Shown here: piece after piece, positions 52,987 to 60,190 of the stretch
How positions within the stretch are numbered: position 1 is the first letter of the stretch
Layout: each line of letters starts with the position of its first letter
Assembly (NCBI RefSeq): GCF_004365655.1
Contig: NZ_SOEO01000001.1
Span: forward strand, 930,001 to 994,000
Reading direction: 5' to 3'
From: Epilithonimonas xixisoli
GTDB taxonomy: Bacteria > Bacteroidota > Bacteroidia > Flavobacteriales > Weeksellaceae
Length of the DNA: 64,000 nucleotides
The notes under the pieces: model-generated
Databases searched by the model: none
Told to the model about the DNA's origin: nothing
What the model saw: only the letters and a program-made list of their open reading frames with translations
Position numbers and translations under genes: made by a program

Positions 52987-54069
52987 ATGGAAAATTTCAT
53001 AGTATCCGCACGCAAGTACCGTCCGCAAGAGTTTGACACTGTTGTTGGGCAATCGCACGTTACCGATACTTTGGAACACGCCATCGATGAAAGTCAATTG
53101 GCTCAGGCTTTGCTTTTTTGCGGACCAAGAGGTGTAGGTAAAACAACTTGCGCCAGAATCCTTGCCCGTAAAATCAATGAAAAATCCGGCGCTGCAGATG
53201 ATGATGGATTTGCATTTAACATTTATGAATTAGATGCCGCGTCCAACAACTCAGTTGACGACATCCGCGAGTTGATTGATCAAGTAAGATTTGCACCTCA
53301 AGTCGGAAAGTATAAAGTTTATATTATCGATGAGGTTCATATGTTGTCTCAGGCAGCTTTCAACGCATTCCTGAAAACTTTGGAAGAACCGCCAGCCCAC
53401 GCTATTTTCATCTTAGCAACGACTGAGAAACACAAAATCATTCCGACAATTCTTTCCAGATGTCAAATCTATGATTTCAAAAGAATTACGATTGAAGATA
53501 TTCAGGAGCATTTGAGAAAAATTGCTGATAAGGAAAGCATCACTTACGAAGATGATGCGCTTTATTTAATTGCTCAGAAAGCGGATGGAGCGTTGAGAGA
53601 TGCTTTATCTATTTTTGATAGACTAAGTACTTTTTCTCAGAAGAATATAACGCTCGAAAAAGCGGCGGAAGTTCTCAATATTTTAGATTACGACCAATAT
53701 CTTAAAATAGCTGATTTAGCTAAGGGAAATGATATTCCAGGTGTTTTGACTGCGTTCGACGAAATCGTGAAAAAAGGTTTTGACCCACATATCTTCATTG
53801 CCGGACTGGGAAATCATTTCCGTGATTTGATGATGGCTCAGAATCCAAAAACTTTGAACCTAATCGAAGTTGGAGAAAAAACAAAATCCAAATTTGCCGA
53901 GCAATCCCAAAAATGGAAAGCTCAGGAATTGATAGATGGTATCGAGATTTGTAATTTCGCCGACATCAATTATAAAAATTCCAAAAATCCACGTTTGACT
54001 GTTGAGATTGCCTTGATGCAATTATCAAGTCTCACTGCAGGTTTGGAAGCTAAAAAAAAAAGTTCTTAA
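52987..54069 (+). CDS. dnaX: DNA polymerase III subunit gamma (short dnaX product)
   Basis: A 360-residue clamp-loader ATPase ending right after a run of ten A. The AAA+ core is complete: Walker A FCGPRGVGKTTCARILARKI (~45), Walker B YIIDEVHMLSQAAFNAFLKT (~117), sensor 1 FILATTEKHKIIPTILSRCQ and the SRC motif, plus the sensor 2 region DGALRDALSIFDRLSTF. The Cys zinc motif usually found between Walker A and B seems to be absent (only LARKINEKSGAADDDGFAFN), as in several Bacteroidetes. The reading frame stops at TAA 54067-54069, five codons after AAA-AAA-AAA starts, while the natural tau C-terminus lies in the -1 frame. Confidence 0.88.
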   Translation: MENFIVSARKYRPQEFDTVVGQSHVTDTLEHAIDESQLAQALLFCGPRGVGKTTCARILARKINEKSGAADDDGFAFNIYELDAASNNSVDDIRELIDQVRFAPQVGKYKVYIIDEVHMLSQAAFNAFLKTLEEPPAHAIFILATTEKHKIIPTILSRCQIYDFKRITIEDIQEHLRKIADKESITYEDDALYLIAQKADGALRDALSIFDRLSTFSQKNITLEKAAEVLNILDYDQYLKIADLAKGNDIPGVLTAFDEIVKKGFDPHIFIAGLGNHFRDLMMAQNPKTLNLIEVGEKTKSKFAEQSQKWKAQELIDGIEICNFADINYKNSKNPRLTVEIALMQLSSLTAGLEAKKKSS

Positions 54070-54095
54070 TATTAGCGCCACTTCTTGAAGCTAAT
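54052..54095 (+). promoter_or_regulatory. candidate frameshift/slippage signal in dnaX
   Basis: A run of ten A at 54052-54061, read as AAA AAA AAA A in frame, then nine bases, then a hairpin at 54071-54095. ATTAG pairs with CTAAT, and inside it CTTC-TT-GAAG forms a second stem (or ATTAGC with GCTAAT). The zero-frame stop TAA is at 54067-54069. Slipping one base back enters the long tau frame. Confidence 0.65.
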
Positions 54096-54701
54096 CTGAT
54101 ACAAGACTCAAGTAAAAAGACTCAAGAGTCAAAATCAGCAACAAAAGAACCAACAACTGACAACCAACAACCATCAACCAAAGTATCTTTCGAAGAACCA
54201 AAAAAGGTGATTCAGAAAGCATCTGAACCTATTGCTAGAACTTCTTCGAATTCTCAATTCAGTATCAAAGCAGCTCTGGAGAAAAAGGAGGAAATTATAA
54301 AAGATGAATTTGCGGAAATCAAAGATGAAAATCTTCCTTCCAACCATTTCTCTCAAACAGATGTGGATAGAGAATGGGATATTTTTCTCAAGAATCTCTC
54401 CAGAACAAATACTTTCGTTTACAACGCCATCAGCAGTTTTAAATTAGAAAAAACAGATGAGCATCAGATCACGGTCAAGTATTCTTCCGAATTTGCAAAG
54501 TCAGAATTTGATAGGATTAGCCCAGAGTTTTTTAATCATTTCAGGCATAAAGTAAATAATTTTAAATTCGAAATTGATTATGTTACTGATTTGTCAATCA
54601 AAAAAGAAGTGATGACTAAACGGAAAATCTTCGAAAAGTTTGTGGAAATCAATCCGCTTTTGAAAGATTTAGATGATTTGATGAGATTCGATTTGACTTA
54701 A
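54060..54701 (+). CDS. dnaX: C-terminal extension of DnaX tau in the -1 frame
   Basis: From base 54060 the -1 frame is open without a stop to 54701, giving 213 residues. It is entered after AAKKK and continues K-F-L-I-L-A-P-L-L-E. It then has a Ser/Gln/Lys-rich linker (TKEPTTDNQQPSTKVSFEEP) and a C-terminal domain with SQTDVDREWDIFLKNLSRTN, VYNAISSFKLEKTDEHQITV and NPLLKDLDDLMRFDL, resembling the tau domain V that binds polymerase alpha. The total tau would be 571 residues, the expected length. An internal ATG at 54207 could start a separate protein, but the continuous frame argues for one gene. Confidence 0.78.
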   Translation, partial: KFLILAPLLEANLIQDSSKKTQESKSATKEPTTDNQQPSTKVSFEEPKKVIQKASEPIARTSSNSQFSIKAALEKKEEIIKDEFAEIKDENLPSNHFSQTDVDREWDIFLKNLSRTNTFVYNAISSFKLEKTDEHQITVKYSSEFAKSEFDRISPEFFNHFRHKVNNFKFEIDYVTDLSIKKEVMTKRKIFEKFVEINPLLKDLDDLMRFDLT

Positions 54702-54768
54702 TTAAAAACATTTATCACTTAATGTAAAATTAATGCAACAATCATAGTTCTCATTTCCCATTAATTTA

Positions 54769-54776
54769 TATATTTG
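54769..54776 (+). promoter_or_regulatory. -7 box for the aromatic leader / DAHP synthase transcript
   Basis: TATATTTG. Predicted start of transcription about 54781-54783, giving a 350-nt leader before the DAHP synthase ATG. No clear TTTG at -33. Confidence 0.6.
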
Positions 54777-54781
54777 TTCAA

Positions 54782-54844
54782 GATTTCGATGAAAATAATC
54801 GAAATCAATTAACCCAATCAAGCTAAAAAGCCTTCCAGTAAGGC
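54782..54844 (+). promoter_or_regulatory. two hairpins in the 5' untranslated region before the leader ORF
   Basis: GATTTCGA (54782-54789) pairs with TCGAAATC (54799-54806). GCCTT-CCAGT-AAGGC occupies 54830-54844 and ends 8 nt before the leader ATG. Both are perfect stems. Confidence 0.5.
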
Positions 54845-54852
54845 ATTAATAA

Positions 54853-54981
54853 ATGGAATCAATCCAATTTCCATATCTTTCAACTTTTGCATCTGCCGAG
54901 TATTTTGGTGGATCATTTAGCTATTTTGGATCTTATTATAGAAATTTTAGAAACTATTACCGATTTTATTGGTTTAGCTAA
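54853..54981 (+). CDS. putative aromatic-rich leader peptide (42 residues)
   Basis: A short ORF found by reading the gap before the DAHP synthase gene, ATG at 54853 to TAA at 54979-54981. Of 42 residues, 8 are Phe, 8 Tyr and 1 Trp, and none is Lys, although AT-rich DNA would favour Lys, Ile and Asn. The last 15 residues contain nine aromatics (RNYYRFYWFS at the end). Placement after a -7 box and before an aromatic biosynthesis enzyme suggests that ribosome stalling at Phe/Tyr codons senses charged tRNA and controls transcription or translation downstream. A toxic or membrane microprotein is a weaker alternative. Confidence 0.65.
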   Translation: MESIQFPYLSTFASAEYFGGSFSYFGSYYRNFRNYYRFYWFS

Positions 54982-55029
54982 CTAAGTTTCTTTCTCAAAA
55001 ATTTTGTGGAATATTTCAGATTTCCGCAA
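54949..55029 (+). promoter_or_regulatory. candidate attenuator structures
   Basis: AGAAACT (54949-54955, within codons 33-35 of the leader) pairs with AGTTTCT (54985-54991), enclosing the last aromatic codons. A second hairpin, TTGTGGAA (55004-55011) with TTCCGCAA (55022-55029, one wobble), follows. T-rich runs lie at 55041-55045 and 55053-55058, but no textbook terminator was found, so the mechanism is open. Confidence 0.4.
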
Positions 55030-55132
55030 CTCATTTAAAGTTTTTAAACGTTATTTTTTGGAAAAGAATTATAAATCAACATTTATAACAGATATACTAT
55101 TGCATTAATTTAAAATATATAAAATTAAAAAT

Positions 55133-56212
55133 ATGAACCTTAATGAATTAAAAAACGATTGGATCAACGACTTCGCAAATCCAATGATCATCGCAGGACC
55201 TTGTAGCGCAGAAAGCGAATCTCAAATGCTTGGAACCGCAAAAAGGCTGAAAGAAAGTGGCGCGCAGATCTCCGCTTTCCGTGCAGGAATTTGGAAACCG
55301 AGAACAAAACCAAATGGTTTCGAAGGTGTAGGCGTTATTGGTCTCAACTGGCTGAAAAAAGTGAAAGAAGAATACGGTTTCAAAACAGCGACTGAAGTTG
55401 CAAATGCGCACCACGTTTTCGCAGCGTTGGAAGCTGACGTTGACATCCTTTGGATTGGCGCACGTTCTACAGTAAATCCTTTCACGGTTCAAGAAATTGC
55501 TCAGGCATTAAGAGGAACAAACAAACCGATTTTGGTGAAAAATCCAGTAAATCCAGATTTGGCACTTTGGATTGGCGCTTTGGAAAGATTGTTAGGTCAA
55601 GGGATTGAGAATGTTGGTGCGATCCACAGAGGTTTTTCCACTTACCAAAAAACAAAATACAGAAATATCCCGAACTGGCAGATTGCTTTGGATTTCAAAA
55701 ATCAGTTCCCGAATATCCCATTATTTATCGATCCGTCTCACATTTGTGGGAACAGAACTGGTTTGGCTGGCGTTTCGCAAGAAGCTTTCAACGTTGGTTA
55801 CCAAGGGGCAATTATAGAAAGTCACGAGGATCCGGATAACGCTTGGAGCGACGCTTCTCAGCAGATTACGCCAGAAGTTTTGGCGGAAATGATCAACAAT
55901 CTTCAGGTTCGTAATTCCGATATCTCTGGTTATGAGGACGAGATGGGAAAACACCGAACGCTTATCAGCGATATGGATTTCCAGTTGATCGAATTGTTAT
56001 CGCAAAGAATGAAAATTTCTGAAAAGATCGGAAGTCTGAAAAAAGAAAACAACATCGCCATTTTCCAGCCAGAGCGTTGGAAAGTGATCACAGAATATGC
56101 GAACCAAAAAGCAAGCGAAACCGGAATGTCTCAGGAATTCATCGAGAAAGTTTTCAAAGCGATTCACGAAGAAAGCATCGAGGTTCAGAATAATATTATG
56201 ATTGATAGATAA
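55133..56212 (+). CDS. bifunctional DAHP synthase / chorismate mutase
   Basis: A 359-residue fusion of two enzymes of aromatic amino acid synthesis. Residues 1-265 are a DAHP synthase of the AroA(G)/KDO8P type: MIIAGPCSAESESQMLGTAK, AGIWKPRTKPNGFEGVGVIG, IGARSTVNPFTVQEIAQALR, LVKNPVNPDLALWIGAL and IDPSHICGNRTGL. Residues ~275-355 are an AroQ-type chorismate mutase: DFQLIELLSQRMKISEKIGS, then IFQPERWKVITEYANQKASE. The first starts the shikimate pathway from PEP and erythrose 4-phosphate; the second makes prephenate for Phe and Tyr. The mutase domain often makes the synthase sensitive to prephenate. The long leader with an aromatic ORF adds a likely second layer of control. Confidence 0.93.
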   Translation: MNLNELKNDWINDFANPMIIAGPCSAESESQMLGTAKRLKESGAQISAFRAGIWKPRTKPNGFEGVGVIGLNWLKKVKEEYGFKTATEVANAHHVFAALEADVDILWIGARSTVNPFTVQEIAQALRGTNKPILVKNPVNPDLALWIGALERLLGQGIENVGAIHRGFSTYQKTKYRNIPNWQIALDFKNQFPNIPLFIDPSHICGNRTGLAGVSQEAFNVGYQGAIIESHEDPDNAWSDASQQITPEVLAEMINNLQVRNSDISGYEDEMGKHRTLISDMDFQLIELLSQRMKISEKIGSLKKENNIAIFQPERWKVITEYANQKASETGMSQEFIEKVFKAIHEESIEVQNNIMIDR

Positions 56213-58945: not shown

Positions 58946-60043
58946 TTATCTTCTTCCACCGCCACCGCCGGATCTCATTCCGCCGCCGCCAGAAGAACCT
59001 CCAGATCTCATTCCACCTCCGGAATTGAATCCTCCTCCAGAATTTCCTGATCTTGTTGGTGCTACATAAGTATCATTTCTGTAACCGCCACTTGGCTGTG
59101 TATTTCTGAATCCGCCATTGTTATTAGGTGAAGTTCTTACGCCACCATTGTTTGGATAATTTTGTCGGATTCCGCCGTTGTTTGGATAGTTCTGTCTGAT
59201 GCCACCATTTTGTCTGATGCCTGTATTGTTTTGATTGATTCTATTACCATTATTAGAATTTCTGAATCCGTCATTCATGGTTCTCAATCCACTGTTTCTA
59301 GTTCCAACTTCATTTCTGATATCTCTGTTTGGACGGAAACCTGTTGAGTTAATTGCATTGAAAGGTCCAGAAGTTCTGTTTCCAACTCTGTTTTGAGAAA
59401 TCATCCCATTGAGTCTTCCGCCATTAGCTCCAGATCTGTTGTAAATAATTGTATTGTGGTGACCGCCCCAATATCCGCCTCCATAATAACCTCCCCAGCC
59501 ATAGTTCCAGAACGGATCATAGAATCCACCGCCCCAGCCCCAAGGTGAGTAGAATGAGTTGCCCCATCCCCAGCCGAATCCCATGCCCCAACCCATCGAG
59601 TTGAAACCACTATTCCAGCCCCAGCCATAGTAAGGATATCCCCAACCGCCAAAACCTCCCCAGCCGTAGCCCATTCCCATTCCGCCCCAACCCCAGTTGT
59701 TGAAACTAGAGTAGTTTGTTTCTGTTCCTGTGAAATTTCCCCAGTCAGAATCGCTACTTAGCGCGTATCGGTTATTTTGGTCTTGAACGTTTTGTTGATT
59801 GTTATCATAGATGCTAGGATAAGTATCTTGATAATTATAATAATTGTCAACTTGATTGTTGTAATTGCCAGAATAGGTACCAGCTGGCAAAGAATCCTTG
59901 TTCGGGTCGTAGTAAACGCCGTCTGTTTCTGAATAACCACCGGTGTAGATAACACAAGAAGTTAATAGAAAGCTGCTGGAAATCAATATCAAACCTTTTG
60001 ATTTGATGAAATTGAATAAGCTTTTATTGTTGATATTTTTCAT
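58946..60043 (-). CDS. Gly/Trp/Asn-rich low-complexity lipoprotein
   Basis: The ATG at 60043 (MKNINNKSLFNFIKSKG) gives 365 residues; the start at 60094 adds 17. A lipoprotein signal ends LLTSC. The mature protein has three zones: a Tyr/Asn-rich acidic part (~35-95), a Trp/Gly/Tyr part (~105-190, e.g. GWGGMGMGYGWGGFGGWGY) and an Arg/Asn/Gly part with a near-perfect duplication (GGIRQNYPNN twice) and an RSGG-rich tail. Such proteins are common in Flavobacteriia outer membranes; the role is unknown, possibly surface or matrix. It shares a divergent region with proS. Confidence 0.66.
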   Translation of the reverse strand: MKNINNKSLFNFIKSKGLILISSSFLLTSCVIYTGGYSETDGVYYDPNKDSLPAGTYSGNYNNQVDNYYNYQDTYPSIYDNNQQNVQDQNNRYALSSDSDWGNFTGTETNYSSFNNWGWGGMGMGYGWGGFGGWGYPYYGWGWNSGFNSMGWGMGFGWGWGNSFYSPWGWGGGFYDPFWNYGWGGYYGGGYWGGHHNTIIYNRSGANGGRLNGMISQNRVGNRTSGPFNAINSTGFRPNRDIRNEVGTRNSGLRTMNDGFRNSNNGNRINQNNTGIRQNGGIRQNYPNNGGIRQNYPNNGGVRTSPNNNGGFRNTQPSGGYRNDTYVAPTRSGNSGGGFNSGGGMRSGGSSGGGGMRSGGGGGRR

Positions 60044-60066
60044 TTTATGAGATGTATTAAGTTTCC

Positions 60067-60074
60067 TATATTTG
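60067..60074 (+). promoter_or_regulatory. -7 box upstream of proS
   Basis: TATATTTG, 116 nt before the ATG at 60191, implying a leader of about 110 nt. No -33 TTTG is clear. Confidence 0.5.
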
Positions 60075-60190
60075 CATTTCTTAAAAGAAACCAAATTTTA
60101 TACCATTTAAATATTATAAATACGTGTAAAATTAGGCTTTTTATTTAGATTAGAAAGTTTAAAAAAAGTTAAAATCATATCAAAAAATTT

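Follow-up and report, generated by a model that had tools for sequence, protein, structure and literature searches.

A conserved aromatic-rich leader ORF upstream of the DAHP synthase/chorismate mutase gene of Epilithonimonas and Chryseobacterium: a candidate Phe/Tyr sensor without a textbook terminator

The window analyzed here is a 64,000-nucleotide stretch of an Epilithonimonas genome (Epilithonimonas xixisoli, NCBI RefSeq assembly GCF_004365655.1, contig NZ_SOEO01000001.1; own genome G000). Between dnaX and the gene for a bifunctional DAHP synthase/chorismate mutase (DAHPS/CM), it contains a short ORF whose predicted peptide, MESIQFPYLSTFASAEYFGGSFSYFGSYYRNFRNYYRFYWFS, has 8 Phe, 8 Tyr, 1 Trp and zero Lys, with nine aromatics among its last fifteen codons. 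The locus raises the question of whether this ORF is a leader that senses aromatic amino acids on behalf of the downstream gene and, if so, how the signal would be read out. The two features concerned are:

54853–54981, + strand: leader ORF, 42 codons plus stop, with 17 aromatic codons
55133–56212, + strand: bifunctional DAHPS/CM gene (Pfam PF00793, 7.7e-39, and PF01817, 4.3e-22, both above cut-off)

The initial annotation, made from the sequence alone, had described this 42-codon, aromatic-rich ORF at 54853–54981 upstream of DAHPS/CM, and its residue counts and position were reproduced. The leader stop is separated by 151 nt from the ATG at 55133. The DAHPS/CM gene scores below the cut-offs of the NCBIfam models listed, and a search of the window leader peptide against Pfam and NCBIfam matched no family. 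Dinucleotide shuffles of the intergenic region produced an ORF with at least 17 F/Y/W in 25 of 5000 cases, and an ORF of at least 30 aa with at least 40% aromatics in 5 of 5000. Among the six-frame ORFs of 30–60 aa in the window (n = 505), two have at least 17 aromatics and one, the leader ORF itself, has at least 40%. By composition alone, such an ORF is unusual yet possible, and the shuffles leave room for chance; it is the comparison with relatives that settles its reality and bears out the earlier remark that the composition looks selected.

A leader is present at this position in all 110 loci of Epilithonimonas, Chryseobacterium and g32 (one further genus, with two loci) that had enough upstream DNA, and it lies 137–183 nt upstream of the DAHPS/CM gene. 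The 110 loci, 78 from named genomes and many of the others from the same genomes fetched again, comprise 92 unique sequences. Two rows with 147 nt of upstream DNA each (L011 and L094) were dropped, as was one from another genus without the leader (L078, on the contig of L148). The leader of one Chryseobacterium locus (L146, genome G182) is decayed and marginal, with an E value of 0.011 against the leader profile. A diverged leader also occurs within Chryseobacterium (L144, G154), and these two loci offer natural variants that could help to show what the element requires. None of 37 loci sampled across 17 other genera in the family carries the leader (best E 0.079; six controls at 3e-16 or better), and in many of these loci the ORF list has dnaX ending a short way before the DAHPS/CM gene. 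A profile built from 29 leaders (A1) was searched against 296 Flavobacteriales genomes and matched 36 of them at E ≤ 1.1e-8, with one hit per genome, in Epilithonimonas (7) and Chryseobacterium (29) and in no other genus. Thirty-five of the 36 hits are within about 310 nt upstream of a DAHPS/CM match; the coordinates of the remaining one (G072) are not listed. Matches in 12 further genomes have E values of 0.002 at best. Since the leader is present in all checked loci of the three genera and absent from 17 others, it probably arose once, in the ancestor of Epilithonimonas, Chryseobacterium and g32. Its ancestral site would have been in front of a gene that is often close to dnaX elsewhere in the family.

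At this same position, the aromatic content is kept among relatives while the sequence drifts, as would be expected if the earlier reading of the locus were correct. With starts picked by a script that brings each ORF as close as possible to 43 codons, the 91 leaders (L146 excluded) have 41–49 codons and 12–20 aromatics per peptide. The dN/dS of the whole leader is 0.63 in Epilithonimonas plus g32 and 0.39 in Chryseobacterium; the C-terminal part gives 0.29 and 0.11 respectively, and the N-terminal part, which is weakly constrained, 0.78 and 0.57. Along a minimum spanning tree of the 91 leaders, 33 of the 121 single-base non-synonymous changes that touch aromatic codons are Phe–Tyr swaps, 2.5 times the 13.3 expected neutrally (P 6e-7). 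The substitution pattern indicates that aromatic class counts for more than the exact residue, and the selection suggests that the ORF is translated. Thus far the locus appears to have what an attenuator has at its 5' end, a short ORF rich in codons for the products ahead of a biosynthetic gene.

Two features are predicted upstream of the leader ORF:

54769–54776, + strand: −7 promoter element TATATTTG, of the Bacteroidetes type TAnnTTTG, assigned by motif only
54782–54806, + strand: hairpin GATTTCGAT / ATCGAAATC, given by folding, close to the predicted transcript start

TAnnTTTG is presumably the Bacteroidetes −7 box. The element TATATTTG, already noted ahead of the leader ORF by the initial annotation, was confirmed at 54769–54776, 67 nt downstream of the dnaX end, and a transcript would start near 54780. 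All 92 unique loci have a TAnnTTTG motif, mostly TATATTTG or TATCTTTG, no more than 110 nt from the start of the leader, and thus a promoter upstream of the leader ORF, as in attenuators, is predicted at the level of the motif in each of them. By eye, relatives seem to carry a hairpin of different sequence at the equivalent of 54782–54806. A second promoter at TTTTTTG..TATAATG was considered and rejected, as no TAnnTTTG was seen by eye at a fitting spacing. Another hairpin, GCCTTCCAGTAAGGC, is located at 54830–54844, just upstream of the leader start; this region has other sequences in Epilithonimonas relatives, with the pairing seemingly kept (by eye), and on the − strand the hairpin has a terminator-like score and is followed by TTTTT.

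The end of the leader and the sequence directly after it can form a hairpin, H1, with a smaller hairpin inside:

54940–54950, + strand: H1 5' arm (segment 1), AGAAATTTTAG, covering leader codons R-N-F-R
54982–54991, + strand: H1 3' arm (segment 2), immediately following the stop codon of the leader
54959–54973, + strand: H1b, small hairpin inside H1 (ACCGAT/ATTGGT), covering codons Y-R-F-Y-W

The initial annotation had placed the final codons inside a potential hairpin, and pairing counts together with synonymous recoding show H1 to be under selection. The hairpin itself therefore stands; the 5' arm given for it, 54949–54955, does not, since relatives favor the pairing of 54940–54950 with 54982–54991, and the 7-bp match of 54949–54955 is possible in the window and lost in, for example, L002. 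Three alignments were used (A2, 91 loci; A3, 25 loci; A4, 65 loci). L146 was left out of A2 and later counts, and L144 out of A4 and the ensemble folding of H3 (see below). Pairs were counted within Chryseobacterium alone (A4); the full-set alignment A2 misplaces one of the downstream hairpins, H2, between the two clades. In the 64 distinct Chryseobacterium rows, H1b is paired in 98.0% of cells, and H1, H1b, H2, the weak T repeat and H4 (see below) taken together reach 95.7% paired cells, with 39 cells changed on both sides. None of 500 alignment shuffles, which ignore relatedness, matched the joint pairing, the double-changed cells or the covariation score, and three of 500 matched each of two other measures.

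For each of 91 loci, the H1 region (leader end and 25 nt more) was compared with 60 synonymous recodings that kept the peptide and sampled codons according to their use in the downstream genes; it was more stable than the mean of these recodings in 90. The z score is below −1 in 89 of the 91 (mean −2.17; window −1.3), the loci being related and not 91 independent tests. H1 is more stable than the recodings and therefore is not a mere by-product of the peptide. Moreover, in L055, L068, L071 and L073, where RNFR is replaced by RSSE or RSSG, a bulge-less H1 is kept (by eye). The best H1 pair (A2 columns 27:69) was also followed on the gene tree (89 loci with matchable flank), where its two sides change 12 and 9 times; about 2.7 of 7 supported independent pairs co-change and none is opposed, which is not significant (p 0.25). 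H1 would correspond to the 1:2-type hairpin over the regulatory codons of an attenuator, with the tree test of that one pair falling short of significance.

Downstream of H1, three further structures are predicted before the gene:

55004–55029, + strand: H2 hairpin TTGTGGAA / TTCCGCAA, arms 55004–55011 with 55022–55029, covarying in relatives
54988–55001, + strand: H3 5' arm, TTCTTTCTCAAAAA, overlapping the H1 3' arm
55055–55068, + strand: H3 3' arm, T tract plus AAAGAA
55069–55088, + strand: H4, AT-only palindrome TTATAAAT/ATTTATAA, 98.2% of cells paired

H2 shows double changes in five of its seven pairs in Chryseobacterium, and per-sequence folding of the 25 Epilithonimonas/g32 loci, with no pair counts, gives compensating forms; like H1, it appears to be under selection. 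H3, a candidate for the 2:3-type helix of an attenuator, would compete with H1, as the two share bases 54988–54991. In Chryseobacterium, H3 is 97.7% paired with two double-changed cells, and 7 of its 14 pairs never vary. When the 3' arm is shifted by −2 or −3 columns, the covariation score becomes 0.051 or 0.040, compared with 0.027 for H3 itself, and the paired cells drop to 76.2% or 61.6%. The case for H3 is thus one of conservation of both arms in non-coding sequence, not of covariation. Ensemble folding of 90 loci formed 2.16 of the six pairs of the upper H3 helix with the leader free and 3.91 of six with the leader masked, an energy-model prediction on AT-rich RNA that needs to be read with caution. 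Masking raised H3 by at least one pair in 58 of the 90 loci and lowered it by as much in six. The masked state mimics a ribosome waiting at the Tyr/Phe codons; with a ribosome on the stop codon, where it would cover segment 2, H3 is absent by construction. The H4 palindrome is kept in the leader-bearing genera. A pairing of CCUUU with a downstream AAAGG, noticed by eye in some Chryseobacterium, was dropped as not general. The leader region matched no Rfam family at the gathering threshold, and the sole match at E ≤ 1 was to a snoRNA, unrelated and on the opposite strand (E 0.93); thus no known Rfam riboswitch or T-box is recognized here.

The core reading of the region as a Phe/Tyr-sensing leader is well supported by comparison. 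In its fuller form, which we consider probable, it is a cis-acting leader of the DAHPS/CM gene that senses charged tRNA-Phe and tRNA-Tyr, and perhaps tRNA-Trp, through the alternative of H1 and H3, its readout most likely being elongation or transcript survival. The translation, stalling, direction of switching and readout that we infer would run as follows. A promoter of its own immediately downstream of dnaX would drive the leader transcript. Once the leader had been translated to its end and the ribosome had gone, its last codons and the post-stop segment would form H1. A ribosome waiting at the terminal Tyr/Phe codons (YYRFYW) would instead block H1 and leave segment 2 free to pair, as H3, with the T-tract segment located some 55 nt downstream, next to H4, and H3 would be the state that permits expression of the gene. 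The readout would lie between leader and gene, in transcript elongation or survival, through a factor-dependent or non-canonical stop or through RNA decay.

This scheme resembles ribosome-mediated attenuation, but the sequence lacks the intrinsic terminator that an attenuator has before its structural gene. The remark in the initial annotation that no textbook terminator is visible agrees with scans of the window and of relatives: no terminator-like site was found on the + strand in window 54600–55300. Of the attenuation reading proposed at the outset, the conserved aromatic leader and the selected hairpin hold; a textbook terminator-type attenuator is not supported. The nearest candidate is:

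55032–55059, + strand: weak AU-rich inverted repeat plus T6 tract, tested as a terminator

It is unlikely, though more plausible than the other alternatives considered below, that this repeat or H2 acts as a weak AT-rich terminator missed by standard rules, and that the locus is an ordinary transcription attenuator. The T6 tract does follow the AU repeat, four pairs of which are paired in 91.4% of cells in Chryseobacterium, and the same genome contains a textbook trp attenuator. However, the repeat before T6 is worth just 0 to −3.9 kcal/mol in the 25 Epilithonimonas/g32 loci, and 0 in 11 of them including the window. The scan from leader to gene returned a terminator candidate in 12 of 91 loci, in none of them with a T run after it; these candidates consist of H2 followed by ATTCCTTT or TCTCATTT, and in 7 of the 91 loci the hairpin is at least as strong as −6 kcal/mol. 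The same scan, used as a control, found a terminator at least as strong as −10.8 kcal/mol in 18 of the 20 pheA leaders of Flavobacteriaceae, and one of −15.0 kcal/mol in the genome's own trp leader. The T6 tract was rejected as a textbook terminator on the stem energies and this controlled scan.

Arrest by the nascent peptide, of the TnaC/Erm type, is improbable. Here the conserved end YRNFRxYYRFYW would stall the ribosome from within the exit tunnel, perhaps with a free aromatic ligand. The non-aromatic C-terminal residues R, N, R and R are largely kept, in line with the dN/dS of 0.11–0.29. RNA pairing accounts for part of this conservation, however, as H1 and H1b hold the same bases; the four loci with RSSE or RSSG in place of RNFR retain H1, and Phe and Tyr interchange above expectation.

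Control of translation is more doubtful still. Bacteroidetes lean on A-rich start regions, and the T tract might pair with that of the gene unless sequestered by H3; the T tract is complementary to the A tract, both being conserved, and leader masking raises accessibility by more than 0.02 in 32 of 88 loci (lowering it in 14). The mean predicted accessibility of the start region is nevertheless nearly equal in the three states (0.60, 0.62 and 0.61; 88 loci with matchable flank), and readout by occlusion of the start region was set aside on this almost absent mean difference. The distance from H4 to the start codon also differs among relatives, and together these two observations disfavor a simple translational lock. 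Lastly, a small working protein or a DNA operator or promoter region, rather than a translation sensor, is very improbable: the peptide is conserved and H4 is palindromic in DNA and RNA alike, but the peptide has a weakly constrained N-terminus and, in the window, the absence of family matches noted above, and the H4 pattern, tried as the operator of a regulon, occurs at 4 genome sites against 4 for its control, while the H3/H4 core finds in the genome the leader itself plus three matches at 3 mismatches and none closer.

The Phe/Tyr-sensing leader favored here can be compared with several known systems. In all 20 Flavobacteriaceae loci examined (L211–L230), the pheA operon likewise has a small leader ORF rich in Phe and Tyr ahead of its aromatic branch genes, with the DAHPS/CM orthologue downstream. 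The gene order is pheA, aminotransferase, tyrA, DAHPS/CM in 19 of the 20, and L222 has pheA alone before DAHPS/CM; gene names are based on Pfam matches in L216 and for pheA of L222, and on likeness by eye in the other loci. In contrast to the window leader, that leader precedes pheA rather than DAHPS/CM, has 19–40 codons (23–27 in 18 of 20; e.g. MIATIYNWNFFYFFFYFFKRGTGLL), encodes a peptide without visible likeness to the one described here, and, in 18 of the 20 loci, has a strong terminator behind it. No aromatic-rich small ORF was found in the 1.5 kb upstream of the window genome's own pheA. The genome's own trp leader, MKTMNNNWWWLSNSLSGLKDLSVF, is located before trpE (L232, reverse strand, 1250–1324; approximately 597629–598072 of C1, − strand). 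As here, a biosynthetic gene is preceded by a leader ORF, in this case with the sensed codon repeated (WWW); unlike here, a textbook terminator of −15 kcal/mol and a T run follow. Because trpE has a Trp leader with a strong terminator, the Epilithonimonas lineage seems to use leader attenuation.

The phe, his and trp attenuators of Proteobacteria have codons for the end product in the leader ORF and alternative RNA pairing that includes the last codons. Both properties recur here; the differences are that the 3:4 terminator is missing and the C-terminal leader sequence is conserved. The Bacteroid-trp motif is linked to trp leader peptides. It is listed as RF01692, a predicted cis-regulatory element of Bacteroidetes, in Table 1 of Weinberg et al. 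2010 (PMC2864571), whereas the window leader region matches no Rfam family at threshold. For Flavobacterium psychrophilum, a transcriptome study reports strong indications that leader peptides attenuate amino acid operons; it also describes structured elements, shared with other genera, ahead of pheA and hisG (PMC9723704). For Bacteroides thetaiotaomicron, small ORFs in long 5' UTRs have been described as reminiscent of attenuation leader peptides; the example given precedes a hypothetical protein, and no aromatic leader appears in the text covered (PMC7366714).

The novelty for Flavobacteriia suggested by the initial annotation is accordingly narrower, leader-peptide attenuation having already been suspected in F. 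psychrophilum (PMC9723704); among the matches listed from open-licence full-text literature, there is no description of the leader reported here. Beyond the sensing itself, we tentatively suggest that a new RNA module, in which H1 alternates with the long-range A-tract/T-tract helix H3 and is accompanied by H4, may have arisen with the aromatic leader in the Chryseobacterium-Epilithonimonas lineage, where DAHPS/CM stands behind dnaX, and that its readout could dispense with a terminator. Such a readout would contrast with the textbook attenuators of the own trp and the Flavobacteriaceae pheA leaders. In Bacteroidetes, where few cis-regulatory mechanisms of amino acid genes have been worked out, the system would add a leader-peptide switch that is conserved and easy to test. 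Should its readout prove to be something other than an intrinsic terminator, it would show how such leaders operate in a phylum whose translation initiation is unusual. There is also a natural contrast to draw on, since two families of the same order have unlike Phe/Tyr leaders before the same metabolic branch.

Two other observations were made in the window. The dnaX gene (52987–54701) is split between two frames at an A tract (54052–54061), where ten A are followed by G; the first frame meets a stop two codons later, and the −1 frame runs to the end. This layout is shared by 9 of 14 relatives checked, the other five giving no motif match, and programmed slippage or frameshifting (tau/gamma) is likely. 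An ORF at 58946–60094 on the − strand has, by eye, a lipoprotein-like start and a long Gly/Trp/Tyr-rich stretch.
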